Positions 26,035 through 61,144 of a stretch of 64,000 bases of DNA are shown piece by piece. Made by a program: the position numbers and the translations under genes. The DNA is taken from NCBI GenBank assembly GCA_963930775.1, contig OZ005689.1, positions 23,682,058-23,746,057 of the forward strand, given 5' to 3'. The DNA comes from Cliona cf. orientalis. Its lineage: Eukaryota; Porifera; Demospongiae; Clionaida; Clionaidae. How positions within the stretch are numbered: position 1 is the stretch's first letter; each line of letters opens with the position of its first letter. The notes below the pieces were generated by a model, which did not search any database, was not told where the DNA came from, and saw only the letters and a program-made list of their open reading frames with translations.

Positions 26035-26058
26035 GGGGGGGGGGGGGGGGGGGGGGGG
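26035..26058. repeat. Poly-G run of 24 after (GT)n
   Basis: A GT dinucleotide run (26022-26034) passes directly into 24 G within an intron of the BEN gene. Confidence 0.85.
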
Positions 26059-26218
26059 ATCCCCATAGTTGATGCACTAGCCTGTAATATTATTGTAAGG
26101 TTACATATACACTCCAATAGGCATGACTGCCATGTTTCAGTTAATAGGGTCTTTTTTGAACGTCCATACTAATGGTGCAAATTCTGAAATATTTTATCCT
26201 TGATGTATATTTTACTAC

Positions 26219-26697
26219 TGTATATGCTTGAACCCCGGGCTTCTATTTCCTTTGTGGCTCTCGAGTCCTGGCTACAGTTTTTAAATGGGCCAGCATTATT
26301 TGTGTAGCACCATACTGACTCCTGGTCACATGGCGCATGCAGTGCCGCATGGTACGTATACAGCAGCTTTAGATTTTGTTTCTGCCTTCTCCATAGCCTT
26401 TACCTTGCAGGAATACGTTTCGTTTTTGGGCCTCTTGATTGACCATCGATAATACAGGGGGACAAAGCTTACAGAAGGAGCTGCAGGTCTCTGCTCAGTG
26501 GCATACATGATCACCAGTGCAACTACTAAGACCACACTTGCAGCTAACTCCTAGTGCGATAGGTGTCACACCCCCTCAAAGGCACCTGGCCTTTATCTGA
26601 GATCCAGCATTAATTTTTCTCAAGACTCTGACGAACCCCTGGCTTCTAAACGAGACCGGTGTCTATTTGGGGGAGGCTTCTGTTTGAGCATATATAG
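26219..26697. mobile_element. MITE with TATATGCTTGAAC...AGCATATATA termini
   Basis: The left end (TATATGCTTGAACCCCGGGC, then TTCTATTTCC) and the right end (GGAGGCTTCTGTTTGAGCATATATAG) are inverted. A half copy, CTCGAGACCC...GGGAAGCTTCTATTTGAGTATAT, lies at about 39480-39540. Non-coding and intronic. Confidence 0.55.
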
Positions 26698-28530
26698 TAT
26701 GTGATTTTTTTTTCCAGAAACTAAGGCAAAATCTAAGCAGACAAAGACTAAAATGGTGCATTTTTTATTAAGGTCCATTTATATGATCATTTGTGTGGTT
26801 TAGATATGTAGTCCAAAACGAAAGGAAACTACTCCCAAGTCCAGTAGGTGTTGATTTATTTAGCAATGTTATATGTAATTTATTCGTGTGTAGGAGGAAA
26901 AGGTAAAACGATGAGCAAAGAGAAGGTATTAAGTTTTTATATGTAGCATAATAATAAAAATTAATGTGTGTATTACAAGTATATACAGTTACGCACCGAT
27001 GCTAGCAAGAGTGTTGAAAACTTATCATGGCCAACATATCACAGAATGGTTAGTAGGGTGTACTACTGTCAACAGTGTAGGGATTTATATCTACTGCTGG
27101 TTTGTATAGAACTTCAGGAGTCAGCAATGGATACCAGCAAAGAATCCGTGGCCAGTAATGAACACATGGCCAATAAAGATGGAGAGGAGAAGCTACTAAT
27201 TGAGGGCATGCTTCAGCCCAACATAAGCCATTGGATCCTACTGATCCACCCCCTACCAACATTGATTTATCTTCATTTGAAGTGACAGTGCAAACTTCCA
27301 AATAGCCTTCTGAATATAAAACTAAGCCCTCCCCACTCCCATCCATTGTGCAACAAGAAACACCGCCTTGTAGCATGTTAACTCCCATGCCAAACTGATC
27401 TTTTCTTGTTTTGATCAACGATATTTTACACCCGATTCATTTGGTTTTATTCCACCTTCAATTACTCGCCGCCACACATATCCTCCACATAATCAGTTGG
27501 GAAATTCCTCCAATTATGGTTTTGGCTACTCGAGCTCTGGAGCTGTAGTAATTAGTATAGTATGAGCTATTGAGATGTACCTACATGTCATAAATTATTT
27601 TTCAGGAAGAATTTGATCATGACAGTTATTCTGTAGGTTCCAGTAGCTCTTATCTCTCGCAGGTATACACATGGTTATTATACTAGGCACTCTTAATAGT
27701 GATAATTTAATTTATTTGTACCGGCTCTTCTTCAGCGTAAGAGCTCTGATGGGTCAAGGTTCACCTCTCCCCCTACTTCTATGGACCTAGAGTTTGTAAG
27801 ATAGTTAAAAGGTATACACAAACTTTATTATCTTATATTATAATAATATTATACAGGTTTATACCCATTGGATATCGCCTCTGAAAGTTCAGTTGGACCG
27901 AATAATTGAATCTGAATTTCAGAAATTTAGTCGTCACCATTAGAGGGTGATTCTGGATACACTCTTCCTAAGCCTGTTTCTAAAATCCCTGGTAATTATT
28001 AATAGTAACTGTTATGTTATAACATTGCACTCCTGCATGTATGATACATGTAGCTACATTCTTACATGCTGCTGAATCAGATTACGTGGATACTGCTGAT
28101 TATTTCAGTGAGGAGAGTTAAATTTTGAACGCGTAAGGTAATGGTTGTCATGCGCATGCTCATACGCCCGCACTACACCATCAATCTACCCCACAAACAT
28201 ACGTACAAATACATATAAAACCGCTTCCTGTCTCTCGCGTATTCGAGGCTCGCTCAGGCTTGCCCCGAATAAAAAACCTAATAGCAGCTGAGATCTATAC
28301 CAAGGCAGTGTCACTACAAGCATACAGCTAAGATTGATCACCAGTACCTGTACCCTATGATCTGACATTCAGGAACCACTTTTAACCTCAAAATAAAACT
28401 CAAGAAACGACATAGATAGAGCCTACAACTGTATAAATCTATCCCTGCAGCAGGCTTCATTGAGTGGACGTGCCACTTGTATGAATTACACTGAGAAGAA
28501 ATATGGTATTACACAGCATTGAGACGAGCA

Positions 28531-28551
28531 AGAGAGAGAGAGAGAGAGAGA
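28531..28551. repeat. (AG)n microsatellite
   Basis: About ten AG units. A second shorter AG run is at 28701-28718. Confidence 0.9.
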
Positions 28552-30016
28552 TGTATACCATAATTATAGGAAGTATTCACACAACAAGCTTAAGATATCA
28601 ACATAGAGAGCAACACCAAGATATACACATACAAGCGCTCAGGCAAGGGAGGTAGTTATATATCAATAGAGATAAGGAGAAAGAAAGAGAAACGGAGAAA
28701 AGAGAGAGAGAGAGAGAAATATATGCAGACATTTGAGGGAGCAGATAGATGAGGTAACATGTCTCAGAGAAGAGAGAGAGAGGATGAATTGGTAATCAAT
28801 ACATGTGGCCACACCTGGGTACTACAACAAAGTACTAGGCAGAGTTTCACACTGCGTCACATGATTTACACTTCCGGGGGACCTCTGTTATTCAAAAGCA
28901 TCGTTACGAATGTCCATGCAGTGTTTGTGGTACCATGTTTTACACACATCACACTCGGCCATTGTATCGCCTTCTTCCTCGGGCAAGCGGCAGGAGCAGT
29001 AAAGGTCTCGCACATGGGGTTGGTACCCCAATAGCTAGGCCTGAGAAGCTACTGAAGTATCACAGATTGCTAGTGCTAGTATAATAGCTATAGTCTAATA
29101 ATGTTGATCACCTATACTACAATAGTCTACACGCCATGACCATGAGTCCAAGTATACCTGTAGCCAGGCCCTGATCAGGATGACAAGCCTCCATGCAGTC
29201 ATCTTCATGCTCAGGAAAGTGGAGTCTACCAGTACACTAAGTGAGAAGCCAAGTAGTGCAGGTACGTGTATGTTAGAAGAGTACTTTTTCATTGATGATA
29301 TTCTATTCATATACATCAAAATTTACACCTTTGATCTACATGCACAGGCAAGGCATTGTCTTCCACCCAAGACAGCAAGACAGACCTATCTGAATCAGGA
29401 CCTGGTATGAAATACGACCATATCCACAGTAGCTAGCATACCTGTAATGGTCCGTGCGGTAAAAGGTTGTCAATAATATTATAGTGCGTGCATAGTCTAC
29501 ATCGATGCCTCAATTGCAGAGATGAGAGCCACTTCAGTCACAGAAACGATTTTCATGTCCTAGAAAGCTCTATCAAGGCCCTGAATTTTTCACGAATTAT
29601 CTCATGCTATAGGTTGCACCATATTGTGATAACCATGGCAGAGTTAATTATTGGGAATAATTAATAGTAATACATGACATTGTAAACTATACACATCTAT
29701 AGTAAGAAAATAATATTGTAGGTTGCTATCTTGGGTATCCACAAAAGGAGAAGCATAGGGTGTGGATTGACAACCTCTCACAGCAGCGTCTAGAAGAAGC
29801 CGAAAAAAGTGCCACGGATTACATTTCCTTGGGAAAGCCGTTACTCCTGCAAATTATTTTCTCCAAAGTGTTAGAGGAAGCAGGAAAGTGGTGCTGCACC
29901 AAAAGTAAGGGACGGCAAGTCTCGGATCAAGAGAAGCTCTGTGGAATAAGACGTAAATGAATGATTGTGCATTGTATATACAATGTCCTATTGCTTATAA
30001 TATACTGACTCCCTCT

Positions 30017-30019
<3 letters not shown>

Positions 30020-30051
<32 letters not shown>
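30020..30051. repeat. (TC)n microsatellite
   Basis: About sixteen TC units in the last intron of the BEN gene; the pyrimidine run lies about 40 bp upstream of the final acceptor. Confidence 0.9.
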
Positions 30052-30054
<3 letters not shown>

Positions 30055-30719
30055 CCTACTTGGCCCCACCCACTAAACTTCCTCTCATGCATAGTGCATC
30101 TTCACAAAAAGTTTTCATCCAAGCTGGGACTTAAATTCAAAGGAAAGGAGGAGGCTGATAAGTGGGACAAGGCTGTAAAGAAGATGAATGCACACATCCG
30201 CTACCAGTGAAGTGCAGCGCTGAAGGATGGTGCCAAGAATGATCCTGGGTCTGGATCTGAAAGTGAACTGTCCAGTTAATTATTTAGCATTCCAACTCAA
30301 AGATATTGAAATTACTGACTATAACTTATACAGGCTGTCTCTGCTGCAACACTGATTATGCTATTGAGATGGGAGTGTTCTGCGTGTATTATTGGAAAAG
30401 TTAATGGGCGTGGTAAAGGTCGTTAGCATGCACGAAATGAGTTGACGTGGACTAATAGGAATAACTGTTCTCTACATCAAGTCGATATACACTGGATAGT
30501 AGAAGCTAAGGTGCTATAGATGGAGAGCTAAACAGCTGCAGTTACCAAGTAAGAAAGATCGACTCAAGTGATCGACAAAAGTATGCTGGGGGGGGGGGGG
30601 GGGCTGTGGGGAGCGAGGAGGTTTATACCCCTTTAGTACGTAATTATAGTCTCTAGCTACTCCATTTATTATGTTAAGCTATATAATTATTGACCATAAT
30701 ATAACATAAATGAAGGACA

Positions 30720-30907
30720 CCATTTAGTCGCGCGCTAAAACCGATGATGATGTTGTGCATTGAATTGGTATCGCGCTGATGGCATTATTGACGCGCGTTA
30801 ATCCACGCGCCAACGCGCTAAAATTCCTAACAGGACTAGCATGATACTTCGCGCCAATGATGCGTAGTAACGTTATTTTTGCGCAGGGTAGTTTTCACAT
30901 CCGAGTT
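30720..30907. repeat. GC-rich block, possible right end of the copy-2 element
   Basis: A CpG-rich stretch with many GCGCG blocks follows the BEN gene. Its reverse complement ends CGGATGTGAAAACT...ACTACGC, weakly similar to the CCCGTGTGGAAAAGT...ACTACGC terminus at 58212. Similarity is short, so this is tentative. Confidence 0.25.
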
Positions 30908-31559
30908 ACATGTATGCTTCAAATTCTCTGTTCTAAAAAATTACCAGATGTCAGCAGAGAGGCAATCTTAGCGAGTGGCAAGTATATTACATTCATCAAA
31001 AATTGACTTTATTTGTTTGATAAAGGGTTACAAACTGTATAAATCACATCAGGTGTGCCATGTGCTGTTTAAACCGCATACTGCACATGCCAGACTATAA
31101 TTGTGACGCATAAGTGAATGCAAGAGCACACACTAGGGTACATGTACATTGCGAGTGTGTAACTTTGCATGGTAAGTGCACTACTGTGGCAATAATTGTG
31201 CACACGTGGTATGTGTTCTACCTACAGAGCTCTAATTATATTTAGTAGTTGCCTAGCAACCAAAGTATAGGCAATTTGCCAGCTATGGGAAGGGGTTGGG
31301 TCATCATAAAGTAGGCCAATGATGAACAGAGGTCAACTACCAACAAAATAGTTGTCTGGCAGTATTTGGGATGCATTCGACCATGCATCTCATGCACCCT
31401 AATTACTGGCAGAAACTATTGTGTATAGATCAGTATGTCGTTGAAGTCAACTTCATGTGGCTGCTTGTAGAGGGGCATGTATATTTTATCTGCATCTGTG
31501 CACTTAACTCTGTTATAATTGAATAAGCAAAAAAATTGTGTTATCTTGGAGTGTATATA
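30908..31559. other. Non-coding spacer
   Basis: About 650 bp, no supported coding frame. Confidence 0.4.
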
Positions 31560-31976
31560 TGTGATAGGATATGAGAAAAGGGACCATAGCACGCAAAACG
31601 CGATTTTTTGCCATTTTTCAAACTGTCACCATTTCAAGGCCTCAAAAGTCCTGGGCTTCTGGCTTGGTTTGTTAGCAGTTTGGGCCTTCAATTTCACAGA
31701 TCCAACGTTAGAAGCCTGAGCAAGCCTCCTGTCCCGATCAGTGAGCCGCCAAAGCAAGGCATAAAACGGCGATTTTTGAACACGATCGACGCGCGCGCTC
31801 GCCCCGCCCACACCGGAAATGGGCGGGGCTCGCGATTTGCAGCGAGTGTAGTAGGATGAAAGAATATTCATGCCAGGTTTGAAGTTCGTAGCTGCTATGG
31901 TTCCAGAGATATAAACGTTTTAAAATGAAAATTCGGGAAATGCGCGATATGGTCCCTTTTCTCGTATCCTGTCACA
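31560..31976. mobile_element. TA-flanked MITE (TGTGATAGGATATGAG ends)
   Basis: Inverted ends begin TGTGATAGGATATGAGAAAA with GGGACCATA following. TA precedes (31558-31559) and follows (31977-31978). It shares the TGTGA...GAGAAAAGGG end with 16604-17023. The interior includes a CCGCCCACACCGG block also present there in diverged form. Confidence 0.85.
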
Positions 31977-31978
31977 TA

Positions 31979-32636
31979 TGTGACCGGATTTGGGAAAACC
32001 CTCCGTATGGGATCCGCGCGCGATTCGCGCAAAGCGCGTTTTTAGTAGCTCAGGTCTAAATTTGTCAAAGTCCAGATTTTGTCATATACATGTCGAATAA
32101 CCCTTCTTCTAACTGTTGCCCTCTTCTACGGAGGCTAGTCGTGCTATACGAAGGCGAAATAAGCCTTCATTTTGACCCACCTAGTTCGTACACGGAGCCC
32201 GTTGCTATGGGCGGTAATTAGAATTCTCTACCTAGATACAGCTAGATTCATCGATCTACTGTACGTTCGCTTACCTTTTTAGCTTCTTGGGCATCTAAGA
32301 ACAATCGCTTGTCCTTGTCAACAACGAAATTCAACTCTTGCTCGATCTTTACGTTCATTTCGAACGGCTCCGCCCAGGTCCATTTAATTGATTTCCGGGT
32401 CACGCGTAGTATGCGGAAACGCCATACGCGTGCATAGCAACGCCTTTAGACCGTAATTTCTCAATTATTGGGGGTGTGGCGCGATCACAAACAAAGCGCT
32501 GTATCTCCACAACGAAGCGCGCGATCGGCCTATGACTTGAACGCGGGTTACCTCTATGGTAGAGCTTATCAACCATGCATCAAACTCAATTTTCTGAAAA
32601 AATCCCATACGGAGGGTTTTCCCAAATCCGGTCACA
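31979..32636. mobile_element. TA-flanked MITE (TGTGACCGGATTTGGG ends), copy 1
   Basis: The inverted ends TGTGACCGGATTTGGGAAAA and CCCTCCGTATGGGA bound 658 bp. It begins directly after the TA that closes the preceding MITE, so the two share one TA. The interior is the reverse complement of the copy at 34935-35603 and includes TAGCTCAGGTCTAAATTTGTC. Confidence 0.88.
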
Positions 32637-34215: not shown

Positions 34216-34500
34216 TTATACAATGAAAAATATTTTTCAGAGCGACAATTTTCTTATATAGTCCGTGTCATTACATGAGGGCATGGATACACGTCGAGTT
34301 ACCAGTAGCGATCGCAGATAAGTCATGGATACACGTCTTGGACACGCCCAGTTGCTATGGACGCGCTGCGCCGCCGAGTGGGCGGATAGAAAGTCCGTCC
34401 GGCATTGCTTTTATGACGAGCCTCATTGGTCAGAAATTTAGGGCTGTGTGCACAGCTACGTACATCACGGTTATCCATGGCAACCAGAGCGTCTTTCGAG
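34216..34500 (+). repeat. Interspersed repeat, copy A (diverged)
   Basis: Contains AAAAATATTTTTCAGAGCGA, TATATAGTCCGTGTCATTAC and ATGAGGGCATGGATACACGTC, matching the ends of 21885-22262 and 63365-63725. The internal part differs and includes a GGACACGCCC segment. Confidence 0.6.
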
Positions 34501-45571: not shown

Positions 45572-45779
45572 GTAAGTACATACTGATTTTTGCTAGACTA
45601 GGGATTTCCCCAGAAGCAAAGCCCAGTTGGGGTTTAAATGTAGTCTCCACCTGCACCCTTTCTTTAGTTAGTCCATACATAAACATGGCGGCACTGCTGA
45701 GGTGGAGAGGCTTCATCTCTGCACTAGATTGCATGACGATCTTTTACTATAATACAGAGTTTATTTCAGGATTTCACTT

Positions 45780-45800
45780 CCCGTGTGGAAAGGTCCGCGG
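45780..45800 (+). repeat. Left terminal inverted repeat of the Tnp2/BEN element
   Basis: CCCGTGTGGAAAGGTCCGCGG; mirrors 58192-58212 with two mismatches. Confidence 0.7.
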
Positions 45801-46480
45801 TTATTGCGTGTAATTTCGCGGATTTCCGCGGATACATGGACGAAGATCTACGCGGCAGCGCGCCAAGACGCGCAGCGTAGATAGGTGAGCGTCCGTTTCA
45901 CACTGTCATTAACAGCTGGAGTGTAACAAGAGGACCAGCAGGATAAGAAAGCGCTGACAAATACATCGCGCATTGGCTGGCAGGTTCCGCGTTCTGCCGT
46001 ACTACACGAAGCGATCGAGCGCCAAACATTTTTAACGGCAAATTCGAGCTAGCCAATTATGTGCGAGCTTACCTATTCACTCGTTTAAGCTTCGATTGTA
46101 GTACACCAACAATTCCTAGCTGTAGCAGTATTAACTCATCAGCACAGTGCTGCTCTGATCTCGAGCGCGTTCTAGCGCTCTGGTCACGAGTTGAAGTTCA
46201 GAGGTTAATTAAATTCTTAGTAACCAACAAAAGGAAATACACAATAATAGTATTACTATTGTAAACTCAAGGCATGTGATACTATTTAGTTAGCTCTCAA
46301 GGCATGTGATTGTTTGCATGTATATTCTCTTTGTCCGAGTTCAGCTTTCGTCTGCAGGTTCTGCACCTCATGTTCAGCTTGTCACGCACTATCTTGCTCC
46401 ATTTATCATCGGCCTGCTCCTTTGGGACTGGATACTTGTAAAATGTTTGGTCTATCAATGGAAAGCACAGTGCACATACA

Positions 46481-48800
46481 TTAGATTATGTAGTCACTAT
46501 GGTAGCACCGTATTGCCAACATACATTTGATTCCCAATAGCACAGTTTGATCCAGGAGCTCTCTTCCCACAGCCTTTGTATAGCAGGACCTTGCCAATTC
46601 CTCCTCACTGAAAAAAACGTCCAATAACTTCTTGGCAAACGTGCCAGCATCAGGAGGGGGGCAACAATTCACACTGTGAAACAGCGCAACAGCTGCTTCT
46701 GACGGCAGAGAAAGTACCAGATGGTGTTTCGATTTAGGGTTCCCACAGACGATTTCTGTTGAAATAATATTTGCATGTGTTTTGACGATAATGTGCATGT
46801 CTCTATGATGATAATAATGCAACTACGTACAATGTGGTATTAGTATGTTTACCTAGTTTTCCTGTTTTCACTTTACCAGCTGCACTCTGCCCTGCTGCAG
46901 TCGGCTCAGCTGAGCTTGCCGTTACACTCTCTTCAAGTACACTCTTATCATCAAAATCACTCCTACCACCTTCAACTGATACATCCTGGTACACCTGTGT
47001 ATAAAATTAATACATATTAGTACATGACTTCCGCTTTAATGATACCCAAGTGGGTAATTTTAGCAATAAAGCACAAACCATAACATACCTTCTTGTGGCG
47101 CTTCCGGGACTTCACATCTTCAGCAACACCATCCACTTTCTGATTCAACGTTCAAACTGCAGCTCCAACCATAGCTTCAAGTTGTCCAGTTGTCCCTGCA
47201 CTGAACGCTCCAAAGTACCCTGTATGATTACATGTGTCATCAAACTTAATTGCCACTCCAGAAAGACACGTACACACACGCACATGCATGCACACACACA
47301 CACACATCACCTTATTCGTGAGATCCTTCACTCGTGGAGTGGATTGGCCTTGCACTATAAGCTCTGGTTCATGCTCTTCAGAGAGGTAGCCATCACCAAT
47401 AGAGATATTACCAGGGGACAGATTACCGGCAAGTACAAAGCCTTTGGGTTGTGATTGTGGTGGCGACTTTTCAGGTGATTCTTTTGGTGATACCAACCCA
47501 TCCAGTAGCTGCTCTGTCACTCGCATGTTCTCTGCGGCTGCCTTCTTCTTGCACGGCTTACTAGCTATTGCCTATAATATCAATGTTTTTCTTGTCAGTC
47601 AAAATTAGAGGAACTAACCCTAACCAGTTGACTTACAACTTGCCGGCGCTTCTTCACTGGTTGGTCATCATCACCTTTAGCCGAATTTACACTTTTCTTG
47701 CAAACTTTACGTCTAACCTGGAGAAATACAAGGTCATGTACTATCAACTGAATGAAACAGCTATAACTTACCGTCTTTCTCTTCTTTCTTGCTGGCTGCT
47801 GCTTGTATAAATCGCTACCTTCTCTTTCTGACTGGTGCTCACTGCTAGCTTCGTTATCATCTTCATTTCCATCACCATTGTCTTCCTTCGTCATATCATG
47901 TGCTAGCTGTCCTCCTTTCGACATCGTCATTTCAGCCTAAATACAATACTATTTGTCACATACTGTGCACAAACCAAGAGGAGTCCAACTTACATCTCCG
48001 GCAGTATCACCCCTTCCAATCTCGGACACTTTCTCTGAGCTGGCTTGAGCAGTCTCTCTATTGTTCGTTATCGCTACCTTCATATCCTTTTTGGAACCCA
48101 TGGCTAGTAGTTTGCCGGGATACTCAACCCACCTCGATCGTTCACGACACCTCACCAAACACATATCTCCAATACTCAGCTCACTATCACCATCAACAGA
48201 CTTCACATTCATCCTTTCCATAATACTGGGAGGAGTATTGGGCTCATCCCACTCAATGAGACAGTGAGTGTCTGTAGAAAAAATAGGATCAAGGAAATGA
48301 ATGATAGATAGATCCTGATCGCAAACAAACACCATTTACCTTTAAACACTGTCTTTTCAGCCTCTGAGGTAACTTGAGCACTCCCTTCATCTTCACCATC
48401 ACTTAAGCCTAGGTCATCTAGCCGTGCCATTTCTAGTTCCATCTCCTTTGATCCTACAGCCAGTAGCTTGCCTGGATACTCAACCCATCTTGATCGTTCA
48501 CAACATCGAATAGAGCACATCTCCCCAACATCTGGCTCACTGTCACCATCAACAGACTTCACGTTCTTTCTGTCAACAACACTGACTGGATTGTTGAGCT
48601 CATCCCACTCGATGAGACAGTCAGAACCTGTAGGCAAAATAATTTCGTGATCAAGACAGTAGGTCTCGATTGGTACCTAGCTATCAAGAACGGACAAGGC
48701 CAGTTACGAAAAGTGTCGGGATGGATTTCGGGTTTAATAGTATACGTTACTAGCATTACAATAAAATACCTTCATTCACAGCAGCACGAATCAATGCCAT
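46481..48800 (-). CDS. BEN-domain protein with two Tudor/SH3-like repeats, nine exons
   Basis: Exons with GT-AG sites (minus): 48800-48770, 48627-48340, 48271-47994, 47936-47772, 47717-47637, 47571-47311, 47219-47089, 46994-46854, 46755-46481. Exons 2 and 3 encode paired repeats: CLIEWDE, NVKSVDGDSE, RSRWVEYPGKLLA.GSK, a small beta-barrel-like (Tudor/agenet) pattern, clearly a duplication. Exons 4-6 are acidic then basic (ARKKRKT, VKKRRQ, KPCKKK), likely nuclear. Exon 7 has a coiled-coil-like QGQLDNLKLWLELQ. Exon 9 is the BEN domain: FAKKLLDVFFSEEELARSCY and LLDQTVLLGIK. About 550 residues. One single-base frameshift in exon 7 near 47150 is the only lesion seen. It is divergent from the Tnp2-like transposase; a targeting or chromatin role for the transposon is inferred. 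Confidence 0.8.
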
Positions 48801-49069
48801 CTTTACTCAATCGATCACACAGCAGGAGTAGATGATGATAACTGGTTGAACTGGAATACGAGTCACGTCGATACCAATCTGCCTTCAGCTTCGAGCTTTG
48901 AGACACGAGGTGGCAGGTAGCAGGTGGCGGGCGTTAAATAGGAGTATGCAGCACCACCACACCGCGGACCTCATCGGAAGCACGGTGATACACGCGGACC
49001 GCATCGGAAGCACGCGCGATCGCGCGAAGTTCCAAGTGATCCACGTGGATCAGGCTAAGTGAGAACCCA
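48801..49069. promoter_or_regulatory. Bidirectional promoter region between BEN and Tnp2-like genes
   Basis: 270 bp between divergent start codons. It contains short direct repeats (AGGTGGCAGGTAGCAGGTGG; GCGGACC.CATCGGAAGCACG twice). No TATA box is evident. Shared control of the two genes is inferred from arrangement. Confidence 0.5.
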
Positions 49070-50040
49070 ATGAAGACTCGTGTCAGTTGCCCAACGATGG
49101 ATAGCAGCGGTAGCGATTCGTTGGATTTTTCCTCTTCCTCCATGGATGAAGACTCTGTTTGCTTCAACAGTAGCCTATCTACAGAAGATCACAGCCAAGA
49201 TGACGATACCAGCAATATACTTGACAGTGAAGGCGACTTTGACCAGCCACTTTATCCTGGATCAAGTTTAACCTTCTTCGAGAGTCATCTCCAAGTGTTT
49301 CAATTTGCACTGCGCCATCGCCTAATTAAACTGGCGTTCAGTGACTTGCTTAACTTAGTCGACAGTCATCTCCCTAAAACCAACTCGATGGTTTCGCTGT
49401 ACAAGCTCAAGAAGCACTTCCTTCACCTCTATCAAGACATCACGTACACAACACACTTCTGCTGCTCAAGCTGTCATGCTGTTCTATCTACTCTTCAGTC
49501 GTCTTGCCCCAATAATTGTGAAGCTGAAGCCATGGAGTTTTTATCCATTTCTGTTGAGGCACAGCTCAAACGACGACTAGAAGGTATGCTATTAGCATGT
49601 GTTGTATTATACGTACTATATTATAGTATCATAGGATCTAAGTTTGCAATTGTTAGGCTAGGCCATTTCACAACTTTTGTATCGTTGTCGTAGACCCTGC
49701 CTTTTGGGATTGTCTGCAACGATTTAGCCGGCCATCTGAGCCTGGAGTTCTCAGGGATGCATTGGATGGAAGTGAATACAAGAAACACCACAAATTTGTG
49801 AATCAGCCGTGCAACGTCACTTTCACCCTCAACACGGACGGAGTGAGTTTGTTCCGATCGTCATCGGTGGATCTCTGGCCAATCTGGTTGGCAGTAAATG
49901 AATTGCCTCCAACAGTTCGGTATGTATGTGTGTACAGTAGCCCCCTTCCCTCCTTTCAAAACAACAACAAAAAACAAATTGCTGTATATACACTCACTCT
50001 GCACATACATGATTAGATTTAAGCGCAAAAATCGGCTGCT

Positions 50041-50470
50041 ACACTGTAAAAAATTTATCCTTAAAACAACAGTTGGTATTTGTAACAACTAATTTTAGAG
50101 TATTTATTTTTATTAATATGATTTTTGTTTTAGTAACTCAGTATTATTTTGGCATTTTGTTTAAAATTACTAATTTTAGTTATTTCAATCACAAATCATG
50201 GACTTAAAACAAGTGTTTAGTATTTTTATTAATATTGATTAAAACAATTAAAATAATTACAAATTAATTAAACCTTAATTTGTTGTTTTAATGAATGCCG
50301 ATTGAATCAACTACAACTAAAATCATTGTAATAACTAACTATTCCCTTTGTTTCAGAAATATGTTGTGTGATTGAAATAATTAGGCACAGTTTGTGTTTC
50401 AATTAATATTGATTGTTTCACAGCCAGCTATTTTTTTGTTTCAGGAACGTACAGTGCAATCAAAATTTAA
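50041..50470. repeat. Left A/T-rich subterminal array
   Basis: About 430 bp rich in ATTAATATTGATT, TTAAAACAATTAAAATAATT and TTGTTTCA words. Confidence 0.6.
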
Positions 50471-50755
50471 TTATCCATACGGTTGGAAAGTACATACGTC
50501 GATGATACAATATCATGACAAAATTAATGGCTAGCATAATGAAATATGCATAAATGCATGTATACGTACTTAAAACATACTGAAACACCATACCTTAACA
50601 CAACATAAACATTTTTGTCTACCTTAGATGCATTCGAGTACAAATGTAAAATAAATGGATAACTCAGAGATGTAAGTGACACAATCGTACCACCTAAACT
50701 TTCTTTCACAACATATGCATGATAATGTTCATCAAAATATTCTGTGATAAGTGTT

Positions 50756-53436
50756 TTAATATAAAAATGCAGTGTTATCTGGCAAAACTAGAATATCTAT
50801 GACTTTTCCAAACGTTGGTAACTCATTACGGGCATAGGTGAGTAATAGCACACAATTAACTTTATATGTACTATTAAAATACTTGATCCATGTGGGATGA
50901 CAAATTAATGCATCATTAGAAATAGCACTTGAGTTAAGGAGATGCTTAATGGAAACTGACTCTTCTCCAAACGACAGTACTTTTGATTGCCCCCCCACTT
51001 CAGGTACCTCAGAGAGATACCTACTTGCTTGTAATTGGTAGCATAGCCACCTCTGGTGTTTCTGGGCTACAGAAAAGTAGATGTTCTTAAAGTTGCCAAA
51101 TTTTGCGGCTTGCTTGCAAAGTTTCAGTTTCGATTCATATCTTATTGTCCACGAGTAAATAACTGGACCGAATCTCAAAATTTGCTCAGGATAGTGTACT
51201 AAAAAGTGCATGTTCGGTGTGATTGATGCATGAGGGTACACTTCCTTATACAGGTGGTGGTGCTCTTCAATTAGAGTTATTAGGTAGGCAACCGTATCAG
51301 CAGAACAAGAATGAGAAGTGCAAATGTCTAGTATACTCAGCAATAAGCCAAAGCATTGCCATGACTTATCATCAACTGGCAAAAAATGTCCAATAAGTAA
51401 GGGTAAGCATCTGCTAAGCAACCACATTTGAGATGCTGACTGGCGTATTGTTACCGTTAAAGCAGATGAGGAATCAATAGTAGCTGGCTTGTTAGAGCTT
51501 TCTGAATAGCCATAATCGAAAGACACTATAAGTTCATTTAAATTGTTAAGTTTAAAATATTTAGAACTCAAGCAGTGATCAAGAAGTTGGGTAAGCTCAT
51601 CGTGTACTATACCTTCTAAAAGATCATGCATAACATCATGAGGAAGATTTTTGACGACCGAAAAATGAGAGATATCCCCCAATATTGATCTGCGATTTAT
51701 CCCATAAGTGATCGAATGGTGTGAACTAAGTGGTCCAGTTAGTAGGTCACAGTGACGCTTGTGGCTTGAAGCAGTCCTTTGAGGAAACATATGTGACAAA
51801 AAATGACAAGCAGCCAGAGCATGTGTTGCCATACACGATCGACAGAATCGATACGACAAGGAAAAGCTCTCTTTAAATCCACCTATAGCGTGACTAGCTA
51901 AATTATCAGCTAAAAAGGCTAAAAGAGTTTCCCTTGAATGTTTGTGTACGACCAGTGGAACATGTGATAGTAATTCCTGTGGAAGCAAGAGTATTAATAT
52001 CGGATACAAAAGGGGACAGAATTGCATCTGGTGAATATTTGTTGATGTCATTCGTTTTTGCAACTGCAAATAAAAAGATGCACTTAAGTGCAGACCTGAA
52101 CTTAGGGTGTAGATTTCCAATTGTAAACAAGAAGATGCCTAGCTTATGCTTCTTACTAGACGATCCTAAGGGATTACAGACTTCGATGTCATCGTAATAG
52201 GCAATAATTTGTAGTGCTGATGGATCACTTGAAAACAATGGATGCTCATGATATTCTTGGCCATCGCAAAAGTCGTGTAATGAACTTCCACTAGTTCGAC
52301 GATTCGTACTAATGTGATCCAAAACATCCTCTCTACCCAGCACCTGCTTTAGAGTACTCAGTATAGGAACATAATAATAAAAGCTCTCACTTGCTGCCAC
52401 TCTTCGGCGCTTACTTCCAGAGCCACAAACTTTATACACGGTTCGACCAAGTTCCATTTTAACTGGTTCCTGTATTTTGGGGGGAGGGGGGTGTTTAATT
52501 AATGACATAAAATTTCATTGAATTGTTTATATGAAGGGTCGAGAACCAGAGTGGCCTAATCCCAAATTGAATGCAGAATAATGTCTAAAAAACTCAAAAA
52601 TGGACTAAAAACAAACACCCTAGCTACCAGGCTCTACCAAATCACTCAAATTTTCAAAAATGTGAATTTTCTGTTGCTCATGAAATGCATTTTAAACATG
52701 TTTTCAAGAGGGGGGGGGCTAACTCAGCATTTGTGGTTTAGGCCACTCTGGTTCACAGCCCTTCATATATTCCCCATCCCATACTTACTATCATGTTGAA
52801 TTCTTGTACACAAAATTTCTCTTGCTGGTATTTGTTCTGGAGTCCATCAAACGGCAGTATACAACTTTGAAATGCATTGTTGATCGTTATAAGCTGCTCT
52901 GGGTCATGAATGTTGCTCTTAATATCCACATGTACGCAGTGAAGACACTCATTAACGATTTTTTCACACCCTTCAACAACAGCATCGACTGCTACTTGTG
53001 ACAATCCCTTTCCTTCCCTTAACTGTAACAGGAAACGAGCACTTTTTCGACGAATATCACTGCTTGACAATGGCTCTGCATCATGCTGTGTCACCTCGTT
53101 CTCACTGCCCATCAACAAGAATGGATCATCCAGAGGCTCTCCAACTTGAAAGTCATGGCTTACAAGATCACTAGAGAGGTCAGACTGTGATATACTATGC
53201 CTTTCACTTAGAGATTGACCTGAATTACTCCCACACATTCGTTCTTTGTGGTTGCGGTATACGTGAGAATTCAGGGATGAAAATTTGGAGTATGTTCTCT
53301 TGCATCCATTGATTCCGCAGGTCACACAAAAAGAGGGATCGTTTGAGTGCGAAGATCGTAAGTGACTAAACCATTGAATCAAAGTGCTTGTAGTGAAGTC
53401 ACAAATGGGACAACAGTGAACGAAAATAGCAGCCAT
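50756..53436 (-). pseudogene. C2H2 zinc-finger/large-domain transposon-like protein
   Basis: Exon 1 (53436-52789) starts MAAIFVHCCPICDFTTSTLI and carries two C2H2-like fingers; the second contains CGINGCKRTYSKFSSLNSH. A GTAAGT donor joins in phase 0 to exon 2 (52469-50756), which starts EPVKMELGRTVYKV. It contains ADNLASHAIGGFKESFSLSY, CRSCMATHALA, LPHDVMHDLLEG, QSASQMWLLSRCLPLLIGHF, TPNMHFLVHYPEQI and RYESKLKLCKQAA. I recognise this order from a repetitive uncharacterised family in fish, corals and sponges with an RNase H-like D..D..E appearance (Asp in HDVMHD, Glu in RYESK are candidates). A one-base frameshift near 51930, between GRTQTFKG and TLLAFLADN, is the only lesion seen. About 780 residues. 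Confidence 0.75.
52470..52788 (-). other. Intron of the C2H2 gene
   Basis: 319 bp; GTAAGT donor and AATACAG acceptor on the minus strand; contains G-runs. Open frames within it are not called. Confidence 0.7.
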
Positions 53437-53633
53437 CGTTTGCAGATTGGGCGCGCGGGCATGCGCAGAGCTGCACTGAACACGTGTATTACCATGTAAT
53501 AGTCACGGGCAACCGCAAGTTTTGGCGCCATTTAGAGCTAGAGCAGCACCATTTTCGTGCAGCAGCTGATCGGGTCCGTGTTGAAAGCGTTGTTAAGTGG
53601 ATTATTATCTAACTTCCCGACGGAGTGGTAAAA
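53437..53633. promoter_or_regulatory. Bidirectional promoter region between C2H2 and SAM genes
   Basis: 197 bp between two divergent start codons; GC-richer than the surroundings (GGGCGCGCGGGCATGCGC). Shared promoter use is inferred from distance. Confidence 0.55.
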
Positions 53634-56411
53634 ATGGCGACAAAACCCTTTTCAGATTGGACGTATCTCGAAGTCTCCAAGTGGCTGAATGAAAATGGTC
53701 TACCACAAGACATTTGTGAAACGTTTGAAGGTGAGGTGGTTTATTTTAGAATATGGACAGGCTGTATTAAAGTTAAATTTCAATGAGAATTATTTTACCC
53801 CTGTGAGAGCTGGTGAAGAATAAAAACGTACTCAGTGTTTTTTAATACTTCTAATTAAAGCCTCTCATTCAAAATAATATGATTAAAATTCTTGTAGCCA
53901 GTTGTGCATTATGTAATTAGATTACCTGCATGTTAGAACGTAATAGAGAGGGTTCCTCAGTCTACACTAAGACCTACCATTTAATGACAAAACAGAAAGT
54001 ACATTTTCCTGTGTATCATTACGCACATGCCAGTATGTATTACGTAGGTACACACCATAATCTCATATACGCCTGTATAGACCCATTTCACGTGACGTCA
54101 CGGGGTGCGCGCAGTGGGCCGCCCTGGAGGACAACTGGAGCCGTTTTCTATGGCGAAAATATAAAGAGGCTGCCTTTGCCGCTTCTTTGCAAAGAAGGTA
54201 AGCATCCGTTTTCTCATGGTTGCAGTATGTTAGACTAACCACAGCGTGCTTCGAAATATCAGTTGGCTGGCGTTCATGCACAACGATAGAGCAATAGCAC
54301 CATTAATGCTTGCTAGTACACTTGTACTCCAACATGGCAGCCGTTGGGGAACGTTTTACGGATTTTCTTGTACGTGCAATGGGTCTATATGTATCCACAT
54401 ACCGTACCCTCCCTACCCAGGACAGAATGAATTTTTCTCATTTTTGAAGGCTTATTTCTCAAAGTGCCTCTATTCCATGCCACTGCTATGTTTTCCAGTT
54501 ATACCTATTGTGTTATGAAATAAATTGTCATAGTCATGCATGCACCTGACAGAGTGTGGTATTTATTTTGTTGGTGTAGATGAGTCTGTAGATGGAGCAG
54601 CTTTCTTAGATCTCTCAGAAGATGATGTCAAAATGATGGTGAAGCCACTCGGTCATGTCAAACGTGTGCTACGACTTCTATCCAATATCAAAACCAAGGT
54701 AATGATGCAATTTTCCATCAATAATTGGTGGTGTTTATATTATCGTGTAATTACAGGAAGCTGTGTCTGCAGGTGATTCCATACCTGCTGAAAAGATGGA
54801 CACTGCATCAGGATCCTCACTGGTTCTGCCCATATCTTCACCTGCTTCATCTGCAAGAAGCTGTGATTTAGAAGGATCCTCTGATAGCAGTTCGCAGTCA
54901 ATTAGTCCGACTACGGGGTACCTGTTAATTACAGCCTTCCCAAGTGCTTCAGTGCAGGTGTGATGGCGTCATTGGAAAAAAAGGATATGAAACCCAAAGT
55001 TCGAAGTGCTTTTGTGCGTGAATTGATTGTGCATATGACCAGCTATGGGGGAAAACCGTCCAAGAATTTCTGTTCTACCGTTGCCCGCAAAATTGTTTTG
55101 AAGTACCCTTTTCTGCGTGATGCTGTTGGGAGTGGTTATGTAAGTACCTGTAATTGTGGCCTGAATGTTCTTATAATATCAAATTCTGTGCAGGCCTCCT
55201 GGGAAAAACGCCTGATAGGACGGGTATACAACGTGTCTAAGGGTGAGAAAAAACGACAGAGTGAGGGAGAAGAAGCATCACCTCTAGCAAAGAAGCGACC
55301 AAAACTTTTAGACCGTTATCCGCCTCTGAGTCCGAGTGACATCACTGATGAGAGTACACATGAGCGCCACATGAAGGCTATAAAGGATGAGCTGGCAAGA
55401 GATAAACCACGCACCTGTGTTCTACAGGAGTTAATGGAACTAACATTTTGTCACCATCGTGAGTTTGTCCTCAGCTATGCTACCTCTGTTGATGAAATTC
55501 TTATGACATATCCTGCTCTTCGTCAATCTGATGTTGTAAGTACACTGAAGTGTGACTATACATACACTTGTAAATTGATAGTACATGGGAGTGGGATTGT
55601 GAGCTTAAATGAATATTTAAAGCTAAGACAAATTATTATTACTGTGTTGCATGTAATCGTAGATTATTCAGGAGATGGAACTGATTTTAAAAAGAGAGAA
55701 GGGTACTCTGCTCCGATGCTTCAAGGCGGAATGGCAGACAAAGTGGGTTCCTGCGATCATCAAATTTGCTGAATCCTATACTAAGAAGTCAAGTGCTGCT
55801 GTTGATGTTAGAGATTATGGTATAAATCTAGCAATTTCAGTGTGTAGTATAGTGTTGAAATTTATTGTATGTATATACAGATACTGAATATGATGACTAT
55901 GATCAAGTGCGTGCAGTTAGAGCATTGGCAGCAATTTTCACCGTCTTAGCAAAGAAGGATAAAGAGCAAGCCCCTCTTCATTACTGGTTGGAGGACTATG
56001 AGGTATGTTTAAAAATGTACACGTCTGTAATGCAAAATTACATTGTTATAACTTACACTTTAGATAGCTGAGGACCCTGAAATCTCTGCTGAAGAGGTAC
56101 CAAGGAGAAATTCTCCAAGGATTGGGAGGTTCATAGGAATTGACTGTCAACCTTCGTACTTCATTTTTATTGAACAAAAAGTGTATGTACAGGTATCATC
56201 ATTTGCCATGGCATTGCTCATTTGGTTTTCAAGCCACTATGTATTCAATCTTGAGTATCATAAGTATTATAGAGATGCTGCTATGTTTATGCAATAGTTT
56301 ATTTTTGATCTCTATGAGAATGATATGAAACAAAAAAAGCAAAACTACCTTACTGCAGTTACTGAGCTGCAGAAGTGCATTGAGCATCCAGTGTCTAGTT
56401 CTGCTCCATAA
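53634..56411 (+). CDS. SAM-domain, SAMD3-like protein, eight exons
   Basis: Exons: 53634-53730, 54580-54698, 54757 to about 54960, about 54960-55139, 55194-55535, 55673-55819, 55881-56002, 56064-56411. Exons 1-2 form a SAM domain (DWTYLEVSKWLNENGLP ... DLSEDDVKMMVKPLGHVKRV). Then come a Ser-rich linker, a conserved block (RSAFVRELIVHMTSYG, VARKIVLKYPFLRD, SWEKRLIGRVYN), a basic EKKRQSEGEE...KKRPK stretch, helical repeats (EYDDYDQVRAVRALAAIFT) and a C-terminal block (IDCQPSYFIFIEQKVYVQ, WFSSHYVFNLEYHKYY). The layout matches the SAMD3-like proteins abundant in fish and invertebrates. An in-frame TAG at 56295-56297 precedes 37 more homologous-looking codons ending at 56409-56411. The exon 3/4 junction needs a very short intron (about 38 nt) or a frameshift. 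Confidence 0.75.
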
Positions 56412-56580
56412 TAATAATAATATAGCCATGGTAATACTTGATACCTACTTATGTTTTGTTTTGTATGGTACACTCATGTATGTTTCAGCTTCAACATTCA
56501 ACTTAAAACTAATACTAGCTAATTGATTTAACAAGTCTTCATTGATTCTAATTAGTTTATATTGGCAGATTAACAAATTA

Positions 56581-56850
56581 TGTTTGGTTATTTTAACCAA
56601 CTATTGTTTGTTTCAAACGTCGCTAAACTGGCATTTTACCTAATTGTGTTTGGTTACTTTAACCAACTGTCGTTTGATTCACACATACCTAGACCAGCAT
56701 TTTAACTAATTGTGTTTGGTTATTTTAACCAACTGTCGTTTGATTTAAACATCGCTAAACCGGCACTTTAACTAATTGTGTTTGGTTATTTTAACCAACT
56801 ATTGTTTGATTCATACATATTGAGACTATCACTTCAATTAATTGTGATCA
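56581..56850. repeat. 67-bp tandem repeat, four copies
   Basis: Units start TGTTTGGTTA.TTTAACCAAC at 56581, 56647, 56714 and 56779, with GTTTGATTCA.ACATCGCTAAACCGGC following. The word GGTTATTTTAACC is palindromic. It is part of the right A/T-rich subterminal region (about 56500-57075). Confidence 0.85.
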
Positions 56851-58191
56851 ATTACTTCAATTAATATGTTTTGAATTAATGATGACCTGAATTGTCAATT
56901 TAATCATGTCATAATAATTATATCAATGAATTTGAGAATAGTAATACAATTAAAATAGTAATTATTAAATTAATGACAAAAAGAATTAATTAATTTAATC
57001 ACCACATTAATTACGTCAGTTTCAGTAGAAATAACTACCAATTTTAATTAAAACAAACAAATATTATTTACAGTAATAATATTTGGTTTTCTTGACGGTA
57101 AGCATATGTACTAATATCCATTATGTGCATGACAATACATCTTTAGGGGAGAATGGCTGTACTATGAATGTACACTTGCTGAAACATATGCCGGCATGCG
57201 TGGCTAACTGGGGACCTCTTTGGGCATACTCATGTTTTCATTTTGAGTCGGTGAATGATCACCTAAAAGCACACTATCATGGCACAAGAGCTATGAACTA
57301 TCAGGTATGTATACAATAGAATGTTATTGTCTTGTTTACTTATTTATGTGTGCACTTCCTTGTAGCTTGCTTTCTCCTACGTGATGCTCCAACTGGTAGG
57401 AAAACCACAACTATCACAGTCGTAAGTTAATTTTTCTATCGATTCCACATAATATTATGATGCATGTTCATAATTTGCTAACACAGAATCATGCTAATAG
57501 ATTGCCATGTGCTTGGGCCAGTTAAGAAAGTACAGGTGGAACAAGAGGTAGCCGACTCTCTGCATCAGAAGCTCACGATACGGGCAGACGTAGCTTCACA
57601 ATTTACCCGGGCAATTGTTGGTGGTGTGAAATACTATTCCCAAGCTTACACACGAGTCACAAAGAGAAACAGTTACACTGTATGCTATAAGGATGGAGGA
57701 GCTACACACTATGATTTGATAAAGTACTTTCTTTCCCTGCCAAACCAGTCTGTGGCTGTTTTGAACAAACTCAGTACCACATCAGATCATTGTTAGCTCG
57801 GGGACTAGGAATTCTTTGCTCTAGAGTTGTTCCAGTGAAGCTGCAAGTATCGCTTGAAATCATCCCTGTCAAGTCTCTTGTGTGTATTGTAGCTTTAGCA
57901 GTACCAACATATTCATTGCTGTGCCTCCAAACTGTATCACAGATGATTAGAATGTTGTCTTAAATTATTGTGCATTCAACTGTGCGCGCATGCATATTCG
58001 CGCACGCAATAATAATCGCAAGCGCGTTATTTTGTATCCCAGGAAGTACTGAAAGTGTGATAAATAAACGCGCATTTCCGCGGAGAACGCGCAATACGCG
58101 CCAATATCATTTGCGCACGAGCAGCAGGTATTCCGCACGTAACCGCGCGCGAGGGTGTGGCTCCGCGGAGTCAATCATTGCGCGCGTAGTG

Positions 58192-58212
58192 CCGCGAACT
58201 TTTCCACACGGG
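58192..58212 (-). repeat. Right terminal inverted repeat of the Tnp2/BEN element
   Basis: CCGCGAACTTTTCCACACGGG; mirrors 45780-45800 with two mismatches. Confidence 0.7.
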
Positions 58213-58670
58213 TTAAGAGAGGGCAAACACATAGCAGCAAACTTCAATGGAGGGGGGATCAAAAGCACCCCTGGTCCCCTGAAGTAAACTGATAATTATG
58301 TAACCATGGGATTTGGCAAAATATTTCATATAACAGATAAATAAACATGCATGCATCTTTATTCAATTAATTATTATTCAAGTATTTACATATAGGAATG
58401 CTGCAAAGATTTGATTAGCTAAAATGCTTCAAAGCCCTCATTATAATATTATGATTTTTGGTCCACATGTGCAGCTACATTTAAGAGTGAAATATCTAAT
58501 GCGAGTCAATTATATGGGTCATGGAAAATGAGTCTTTGCATAGCCCTAGTCTTGGCTCAGTCATACGCATAGGATGGGAAGTTATGTATAACCTCAACAA
58601 ATTTAGCTATTGCATAGGGATGCACCACATTTGATACTCTCCCACAATGCGAACTCTTGCTGTTATGCAG

Positions 58671-61144
58671 GTGTGCTTTGTTGGTGAAAGTGGGATAGAT
58701 ACTGGTGGCCCACGTAGGGAGTTCTTTCGCCTACTTGTGGAAGAAGGGTCAGCCAGGTATTTGGTGGGGACTCCCGGCAAGATGACATCCGCCTCAAATA
58801 CTATTGCTTGCCAGGTACATGTATCATTGTTTTTTTTGTCACATGTGTGTTGTCTTTAATTTCATAGCAATGTTCTTGTATTGCAGAAGTCAGAACTATG
58901 TCCATTGTACAAGGGGGACCCGGATTTCCTGTCCTACATGCCAATATTTACAACTATAATAATAGTGACGGGAAAGTACATTGGTGTGCACACACCTGAT
59001 GAGGATGTGGCTAACCCTACTGTGGTTGCTTTACTTCAAGAAGTAAGTTTTAAAAATTAGTATACAATTATAATTATAATAATATGTGACCGTCCATGAT
59101 ACGGAGCTGTTGCCATAGTTGCAGCTAGGCAAGCACGGCAGCTGCAGAGAAAAAAAACTCTCCAGACACTTCTTTCTTCGATTTTGTGTACTAACGATCT
59201 ATAGACACGCTTATCTTTTCGTTTTTTTTCCATCGAAACGCCGGCTGCTGCTTCCTTTCCAACATTTTGGCCGCCATCTAGCTCTTTGACTTAGTGGGCG
59301 TGGCCACATACTTTGCATAAACAGCGAGTATACGGACTTCCGCATGCAATGTACACAGCAATGTTTCATTGTGCTTGCTGCACATTTTTATTACGGGCGA
59401 TCCGGGTACATTTTGGCTCATATCTCCACGATTATACGGGCTAGAGACTTCAAATTTGCAGGAGCAATAGTTCAAAGGTTGTATTTGGTAATGGTGGCCT
59501 TAACTAAAAATCGGTTGTCAGCGCAATAATATATGGTTGGTTTTGTCATGGATGGTCACATATTATCATTATATACCGGCCAAGCACCCACTCCCTTGTA
59601 AGTGCCCATGTACCAGGTATAAGCGGTCAGTGTAACAGCTTCTATACAAATGTCCCTGGGAAGAGCCCATGTGGGCCAAATTCATGTACCCGGGACACTG
59701 TTATACACAATTAGGGTGGCTTTATACTTGACCAATCCTAATTATTATGTTTTTATTGTAGTGGCATATATACATGACATTGTGTAACTGGGGGGTGGGG
59801 GGGGGGGGGGTGTTGGAGCTTGCACAAGTGTTTGTATTATATGGCATGGCCATGTAACTGAGACCTCCAAGAGGCTAGATCATAGCTATCGAGCCAAAAA
59901 ATGGTGAAACGTTCAGTTTTTGGTGGGAAGGGACATGCACCCCCCCCCTTGTAAAAATTAGCCATATACATGCGTGGCTTCTGATATAATATAGGAGTTG
60001 TCATTTATGATAATCCACCACTGCACTTTTTATCAACAACAGTTGAATGGTTGCTGTGATGATCAGTCCATCAAGACTGTATTCACCAATGAAGACTACT
60101 TGGATATCCTCTACACTACTGGCTACTGCAAGCCAGTGACTGAAATAGCTATCAGGGACATGGCGGATATTAAGCAAGCACTGAAAATCCATTTTATGAT
60201 TAAGGCAGTCCTTGCTGAGATCAATGAGTTTAGAGACGGCCTAAAAGTTCTCTCAGTGTTGGATCAGATTCTCAAATATCCAGATATAATGAGGCCATGT
60301 TTTGTAGATGAGCAGGCTCCTCTTACTGCAGGTAGGTTCATAATGCTATTTAAAGTCTTTGTAACTACGCTATAATAAAAATTAATAAAATATTATGATG
60401 ATATTGTACATTTATAGTGACCATGAAGCAAACGTTCAGAGTACTATACTCCCCAAAGCACCTTCCTCAGTCCCGAAAGCGGGAGGAGACAATTTTTATC
60501 CTCTTTGCTACCTTTTTGGATAAATGTGAAGGTAATACCATAGTGCAGTAGTTGTCAGCGTGATCACCCTGTAACATACTTGTAAATGATGACCCTTTAC
60601 TGTAAGGGTACGAAGAGGGAGGTTTACACTAGGATTGGGTATTCACCTTGCACTAGTATCATAACAATCAGGGCTCTCCCCAGGAAGAGTTCAAGGCACA
60701 GTGGGTGGGCAGAGTTTTATCATCTTGGTTACTATAATATCAAAGAAATTGTATTATGGGTATGGGGGGGGGGGGGTGTGGGCTAGGCCTGGGAGAACAC
60801 TGACATTCTTATGAAAAATTGTTGCTACTTCTTGCAGCTGGAGAAATTATTGTAGCAGTAGAGTCCCTAACTGGACATGGCCAAGCATCAGAGCCACTCT
60901 TGCTAAGTGACATACTAGCATTCTTCACTGGAGCAGACAGGATCCCTCCTGGGGGGTTCTCTTAAAAAAAAACCCCTATGAGCCCAAGCTGAAATTTCTC
61001 CATGATGATGACGAGCCATTAGCTACTGCAAGCACCTGTGATCTTACTCTGCGCCTTCCGATCAAGTACCACAATGACCCTGAAAAAATTGAAGAGATGA
61101 TGATTCTTAGTTTCAAGGGATATCAAGGGTTTGGAAGGGTCTAG
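58671..61144 (+). CDS. HECT domain exons of an E3 ubiquitin ligase-like gene
   Basis: Exons: 58671-58814, 58887-59042, 59995-60331, 60418-60531, 60838-61144. The first opens VCFVGESGIDTGGPRREFF, the N-lobe signature of HECT domains. Later exons give SFMIIHHCTFYQ, EINEFRDGLKVL, then the C-lobe hinge SDILAFFTGADRIPPGGFS and LATASTCDLTLRLP, where the Cys (codon 61037-61039) sits at the position of the HECT catalytic thioester cysteine, and finally YQGFGRV. An in-frame TAA at 60963-60965 lies between GGFS and KKNPYEPKLKF, upstream of the catalytic Cys. Unless it is read through or a sequencing error, the protein would lose its active site. The first exon is in phase with 45400-45571. A MITE (59085-59560) lies in its second intron. 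Confidence 0.82.
59085..59560. mobile_element. TA-flanked MITE (TGTGACCGTCCATGA ends) in HECT intron
   Basis: Inverted ends TGTGACCGTCCATGATACGG and GTCATGGATGGTCACA bound 476 bp. TA precedes (59083-59084) and follows (59561-59562). It shares the TGTGACCG start with the 31979 and 34935 elements. Confidence 0.85.

Follow-up and report, generated by a model that had tools for sequence, protein, structure and literature searches.

CACTA transposons of plants encode a Tnp2-type transposase together with TNPA, a protein that binds the subterminal repeats of the element and is required for transposition (PMC2613891), and as far as the available parts of the literature go both the repeats and the binding protein vary among families (PMC2613891, PMC1636069). 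In animals, the accessible text on SmTRC1 and other TRC elements gives a Transposase_21 transposase, terminal inverted repeats (TIRs) starting with CCC and a 2-bp target duplication, and shows no partner with a BEN domain (PMC1636069). Here we describe an element of the sponge Cliona cf. orientalis that shares these three features with the TRC elements but has a BEN partner. It lies at 45780-58212 of a 64,000-nucleotide stretch of contig OZ005689.1 (hereafter the window; C1:23682058-23746057 of a 216.8-Mb genome, of which the L-numbered loci mentioned below are further loci). Our reading, to which we assign a probability of about two in three, is that of a nested, inactive two-gene animal CACTA/EnSpm transposon of the TRC type, whose BEN protein is a TNPA-like partner that binds the element ends.

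Like En/Spm, Tam1 and Tgmt of plants, with their TNPD and TNPA, the sponge element combines a Tnp2-type transposase with a second product, which in plants is DNA-binding according to the excerpts at hand (PMC2613891, PMC1636069). In the plant systems, as these excerpts describe them, the second product arises by alternative splicing of one transcription unit, whereas the sponge element has a separate, divergent BEN gene. The plant-type hallmarks, a CACTA core and a 3-bp duplication, are absent: the sponge ends read CCCGTG, CCCGTGTGG or CCCGGGTG and the duplication measures 2 bp. As in a TNPA-like system there is a second element-borne gene under selection, BEN, and subterminal repeats to which its protein would bind are present. 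The 8-bp duplication that the consulted portion of PMC12730594 gives for Zisupton (KDZ group) contrasts with 2 bp in 6/6 sponge elements. Because of its transposase, its CCC ends and its 2-bp duplication the element can be assigned to the animal CACTA elements of the TRC type.

The 12.4-kb interval is a single, nested element of the CACTA/EnSpm type, which ends in CCCGTGTGGAAA and is flanked by a target duplication of 2 bp. Its 21-bp TIRs are located at 45780-45800 (plus strand, BEN side) and 58192-58212 (minus strand, transposase side), for which 0 of 100 shuffles gave any match at up to two mismatches, and they are flanked by the duplication TT at 45778-45779 on the left and 58213-58214 on the right. 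Between them, the start codons of a BEN-domain gene (46297-48800, minus; ten exons, projected from L028) and of a Tnp2-like gene are separated by 269 bp, at 48800 on the minus and 49070 on the plus strand. The BEN domain is encoded by exons 9 and 10 (46300-46756, minus), and a short N-terminal domain, present twice, by exons 2 and 3 (47982-48639, minus). What is present of the Tnp2-family transposase comprises a 5' part at 49070-50041 (plus; exons 1, 2 and the beginning of 3) and a 3' part at 57075-57950 (plus; the end of intron 7 and exons 8-10). CGCG-rich subterminal arrays are found at 45780-46029 on the BEN side (8 CGCG) and at 57963-58212 on the transposase side (14 CGCG), and the divergent promoter region (48801-49069) comes with six CGCG within 48950-49070. 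The first-pass annotation, made from the letters of the window, had placed the gene pair between 21-bp inverted repeats; the repeats are real and TT-flanked, but the interval is nested, since 50042-57074 is another element.

The TIR pattern has seven exact sites across the genome, all of which are ends of five elements (the window element, L028, L029, L031 and L032), each enclosing both genes head-to-head. The inverted repeats might have come from a short repeat dispersed in the genome, a doubt raised when they were first noticed; this was rejected, because all seven matches are ends of BEN/Tnp2 elements. A sixth, more distant complete element, L034, has the ends CCCGGGTGAAAAGG; TIRs and target duplications thereby surround both genes in six elements, representing three subfamilies. 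The duplication is perfect in 6/6, being TT in the window and GG, TA, AG and CT in its four relatives, with CT again in L034. L029 and L031 are 99% identical and occupy different sites with different duplications. A BEN-side TIR-like sequence (1 to 4 mismatches) is present in four more loci, L033, L035, L040 and L043, which have only this end identified.

The cleanest comparison is offered by L028, an un-nested element of 6688 bp that is collinear with the window element apart from 50042-57074, where it has 1.2 kb of its own. Both its genes are open across ten exons, the splice signals being standard, and give a transposase of 765 and a BEN protein of 596 amino acids. This transposase matches Transposase_21 with an E-value of 5.9e-17 and 62 bits (cut-off 28.6), those of L049 and L050 likewise score above the cut-off, and the motifs C(2)C and H(3-4)H of the CMC transposases (PMC12730594) can, by eye, be read in the L028 protein as CTYC and HLLKH. 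In L032 there is a small frame slip close to the transposase end.

The window copy is dead, as comparison with L028 shows, the middle of the transposase having been replaced and the BEN frame broken. Most of the sequence from exon 3 to exon 7 is gone from the transposase, whose exon 10 contains a stop as well as a frame shift. In the BEN gene, exon 7 carries a frame break (about 47150) and a stop, ahead of the part that encodes the BEN domain. These losses, with frame breaks in both genes, leave next to no room for a domesticated pair retained by the host at this locus, in favour of which there is nothing beyond the presence of the locus.

The repetition of the head-to-head pair within the window had led to the proposal that the BEN protein serves the transposon as a chromatin-binding accessory module and is no host product. 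Both pairs were confirmed, the one near 24 kb, which is degraded, by tblastn and hidden Markov model (HMM) scans. Across the genome, 27/70 Tnp2 loci and 27/41 of the surveyed kind of BEN locus are linked at a distance of no more than 10 kb, and all 27/27 linked loci are head-to-head, against a chance expectation of about 0.27 linked loci. These totals include a second transposase query, and the window element is counted once, its second half having been left out. In the first survey, a BEN gene was found within 9 kb in 22/32 clusters of transposases at least 36% identical to L028, again always head-to-head; the 32 clusters are 31 loci, because the window element was split in two. The genome searches scored part of their candidates (59/437, 71/343, 93/258 and 150/165), so that the locus counts are lower bounds. 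Several second-exon matches of one gene were excluded before clustering, the BEN loci C1:3417229 and C3:9992489 came from HMM scans, and the 24-kb pair of the window is in neither survey list. Since the pairs themselves supplied the BEN queries, and several of the loci are nearly identical to one another, the loci do not all count as independent events.

Both genes are under purifying selection, since their ratios of nonsynonymous to synonymous substitution (dN/dS), a check that the first-pass annotation had called for, are well below 1. Between L028 and L032 the ratio is 0.15 for the transposase (95% interval 0.09-0.25, 734 codons) and 0.22 for BEN (0.11-0.40, 591 codons), and between L028 and the window copy 0.27 (0.13-0.51, 427 codons) and 0.29 (0.16-0.52, 560 codons), respectively. 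The comparison of L028 with L029 gives dN values of 0.117 (transposase) and 0.244 (BEN), with four short BEN exons unaligned and BEN dS saturated. The pairwise distances of the two proteins correlate (r 0.80, Mantel p 0.0016) over eight loci, a set from which the 24-kb pair and L043 were left out because the transposase sequence of both is short. With the TIRs enclosing both genes, 27/27 pairs head-to-head, dN/dS below 1 and correlated distances, there is strong support for regarding the BEN gene as part of the transposon. BEN proteins are, in the available parts of the literature, mostly described as host chromatin factors (PMC10206803, PMC11472053), which would favour a host gene that was captured or came to adjoin the insertions by chance; given the linkage counts, the enclosing TIRs with their duplications and the co-divergence, such an origin is hardly credible, and BEN as a mere host neighbour is held refuted for this Tnp2/BEN family. 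At the level of sequence we thus consider established the layout, the CCC-starting TIRs, the 2-bp duplications, the Tnp2 (Transposase_21) identity and the enclosed, co-evolving head-to-head BEN gene, as well as the selection on both genes and, as set out below, the CGCG arrays and the BANP-like domain.

As to what the BEN protein may do, a family profile of eight BEN sequences, including that of one Tc1-linked locus, was compared with solved structures and matched BANP (4.6e-10), BEND3 (1.9e-6) and BEND6 (4.1e-6), with no further molecule under 0.1 among the solved structures. BANP and BEND3, the closest solved BEN domains, recognise unmethylated CGCG, the choice made by BANP requiring oligomerisation, and Arg316 of BANP reads a CGCG guanine, as stated in the part of the study available (PMC11472053). 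The same source gives the BEN fold as two strands plus five helices. This CGCG-reading Arg is mostly kept in the sponge proteins: aligned by eye, the residue matching R316 is Arg in 9/10 distinct Tnp2-linked BEN sequences with a readable helix, and Asn in the Tc1-linked L012. Unlike BANP and BEND3, which are host chromatin proteins, the sponge BEN protein is transposon-borne and has the short N-terminal domain, twice in L028. This domain of about 65 amino acids has no sequence match in Pfam or PDB, and a phage collection searched for the BEN domain gave no match. We observed separately a possible similarity between the short domain and the N-terminal part of a BEN gene that is linked to Tc1 (L021:2652-3197), with 33% identity in the alignment.

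The putative target, CGCG, clusters towards the ends of the elements. In the six complete elements the two terminal 250-bp stretches hold 26/35, 25/33, 22/32, 31/36, 31/36 and 20/34 of all CGCG, with a binomial p below 1e-12 in each, a test in which overlapping CGCG runs are not independent and six elements stand for three subfamilies. In L028, 34/35 CGCG fall in the two ends or in the divergent promoter. The context of the motif at the ends is CGCGTA in L034 and CGCGGA in L028. The observed/expected (o/e) ratio of CpG reaches 1.5-2.1 at element ends versus 0.5-0.7 in the middle; over the whole window it is 0.64, and TG/CA is raised at 1.22, as expected of a methylated genome.

The first-pass annotation had proposed chromatin binding; what the sequence points to is binding of CGCG. 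On this basis we infer that the BEN protein may bind the CGCG arrays and help the transposase, and that methylation may play a role. It would be the element's own DNA-binding partner in the role of plant TNPA: its BANP-like BEN domain would bind the arrays beside both ends, help to pair these ends for the transposase, and control the shared divergent promoter, which often has its own CGCG cluster. Because full-length BANP requires unmethylated CGCG, the system could in addition sense methylation.

Two other roles for a transposon-borne BEN protein can be weighed on the same evidence. It might act on chromatin, opening the divergent promoter or shielding the element from silencing, with no part in cutting. 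The CGCG clusters (at least four per 250 bp) seen between the divergent genes at 11/17 BEN-type versus 1/7 SAM-type loci (p 0.034) speak for such a role, as do the enrichment of BANP at CpG-island promoters, reported in the text at hand (PMC11472053), and the genome methylation suggested by the CpG ratio of the window; since CGCG is strongest at the two ends rather than the promoter in 6/6 complete elements, we regard it as rather unlikely. Alternatively, the protein could be a self-limiting repressor that covers ends and promoter and keeps copy number down. Plant TNPA can regulate both positively and negatively, according to the accessible part of PMC2613891, and just seven exact ends were found in the genome, yet the window copy with its dead transposase has a broken BEN frame too, and this option seems to us quite improbable. 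We retain the TNPA-like, end-binding partner as our preferred reading of the BEN protein.

Several observations weigh against it nonetheless. The BEN-profile score of L049 (25.2 bits) is above the Pfam cut-off of 23.2, but those of L028 (17.7), L034 (20.0) and L040 (16.9) are below. The isolated BEN domain of BANP binds methylated and unmethylated DNA alike, as the available excerpt reports (PMC10206803), and L050 has Leu at the position of the key Arg. Within the window, CGCG clusters of 8 per 250 bp also occur at 20576 and 31776, beyond the known ends of either pair. For the divergent-region comparison given above, the threshold was picked post hoc, the regions are of unequal length and the cluster in L038 may lie in a nested insert. 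Linkage is incomplete as well: within 10 kb, 43/70 Tnp2 loci are without BEN and 14/41 BEN loci without Tnp2, and transposase loci less than 36% identical to L028 have a BEN partner in 0/14 cases. An adjacent BEN gene at Tnp2-like loci, for which the first-pass annotation had asked to test, is found in most clusters at 36% identity or more but does not hold for Tnp2 loci at large; taken literally over all Tnp2 loci, most lack BEN, the very finding which that annotation had set against its own proposal. A BEN partner common to all Tnp2 elements was accordingly rejected, given the 0/14 and the pairing of another type of transposase with SAM-domain genes, described below.

Among the unpaired loci that were read, L046 and L048 have a BEN gene reduced to its first exon, L042 retains an N-terminal domain of the L038 type, and C6:5997160 (L039) is a 98% copy of a paired transposase; for the unpaired BEN locus C5:6470340 a head-to-head transposase exon, absent from the genome-search list, was seen in L037. 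In L045 no BEN remnant was seen when the locus was read. Beside this Tnp2 locus without BEN there is a long open reading frame (ORF; L045:87-1529), which we take to resemble a P-element-type transposase. We also note that L039:1460-4525, at the expected BEN side and adjoining the 98% copy of a paired transposase, is repeat-rich.

The element nested in the outer transposase of the window (50042-57074, 7033 bp) is a Tnp2-like relative with a different partner, a SAM-domain gene. Its bounds, of which the far one is provisional, come from the comparison with L028, which lacks it; its first letters, CACTGTAAA, stand exactly at the boundary so given, the 9-mer at this start being by itself expected 0.9 times per window. 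With the insertion the outer element lost about 1.2 kb of its sequence. Transposase-like ORFs and a C2H2-like ORF (50756-53436, minus; Pfam matches below cut-offs) and the SAM-domain gene (53634-56300, approximate limits, plus; SAM match below the Pfam cut-off) stand head-to-head as a divergent pair of their own, and 66-bp AT-rich tandem repeats lie near one end (56570-56818). Across the genome, 17/19 loci with related SAM genes have an inner-type transposase within 9 kb in head-to-head orientation, where about 0.1 would be expected by chance, and only 1/65 inner-type transposases has a BEN gene within 9 kb, arranged in tandem. The SAM-domain partner of this other Tnp2-like group suggests an old divergent two-gene layout in which one partner can be swapped for another. 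No EnSpm transposase with a SAM domain was found in the literature searched.

The second pair of the window consists of degraded Tnp2-like transposase exons (22327-24109, minus; tblastn and HMM scans) and a BEN gene of another subfamily (25074-30207, plus, ATG at 25074), with the N-terminal domain at 25366-25599 and BEN exons at 29706-29957 and 30001-30207 (plus). On its BEN side a TIR-like sequence (30871-30888, minus) lies next to a CGCG cluster; a matching end on the transposase side was not found in a search allowing up to three mismatches. Larger inverted repeats at 16601-17026 and 31557-31979 were considered as ends of this pair and rejected, since either arm is a palindrome in its own right. 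They appear to be two copies of an independent palindromic repeat of about 430 bp, which flank the pair in inverse orientation. Another repeat has inverted copies at 22084-22260 and 34217-34452, and a 331-amino-acid ORF (19604-20599, minus) adjoins a CGCG cluster (20577-20607). Just beyond the window element, at 58680-60400 (plus), there are exons that presumably resemble those of a HECT-type protein.

BEN genes are also met beside transposases of another superfamily. The Pfam model found 25 BEN loci, and at 22 of these a Tc1/mariner-type transposase is present within 4 kb (about 0.1 expected), the two genes being tail-to-tail in 11 cases and in tandem in the other 11; no Tnp2 locus of the first survey comes within 9 kb of any of them (0/25). 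The linked ones are L008-L024, L026, L027 and three more loci, and those without a Tc1 partner are L025, C1:23074194 and C1:36769677; from the other side, 85/107 Tc1 clusters are without a Pfam-level BEN gene within 4 kb. The Tc1 query family scores above the cut-off for DDE_3 and below it for the Tc3 helix-turn-helix model, the other Tc1 loci having been collected by similarity. Compared over 3.2 kb, copies of the pair, both genes included, are 94% (L014 and L015) and 97% (L014 and L012) identical. A second transposon superfamily, Tc1/mariner, thus seems to carry a BEN gene. In the literature searched on EnSpm, transposase, sponge, polydnavirus and mariner topics, Repbase families being outside this comparison, no transposon-borne BEN gene was found among the matches listed, and those of them that dealt with BEN domain, mariner and transposable element together concerned lateral transfer to Lepidoptera. 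A parallel exists in fungal DNA transposons, EnSpm among them, that carry TET/JBP: in the accessible part of that report (PMC12730594) unrelated superfamilies likewise share a methylation-related extra gene, which there encodes an enzyme acting on methylcytosine, whereas the sponge element has a presumed CGCG-binding protein.

The BEN protein is a candidate for a plant-like second DNA-binding CACTA protein, now in an animal lineage, and it would be a CACTA partner built from a domain that is elsewhere met in chromatin regulators and viruses. The element offers a direct test of how transposons could read the methylation of CpG at their termini. Considered along with the Tc1/mariner link, it prompts the question of a transposon history for BEN chromatin factors. 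We advance only tentatively, as a possibility well short of even odds, that BEN genes in this genome are largely parts of transposons, both CACTA and Tc1/mariner, that in CACTA elements they act as methylation-sensitive readers of the ends, and that BANP and BEND3 may descend from, or share a history with, such genes.

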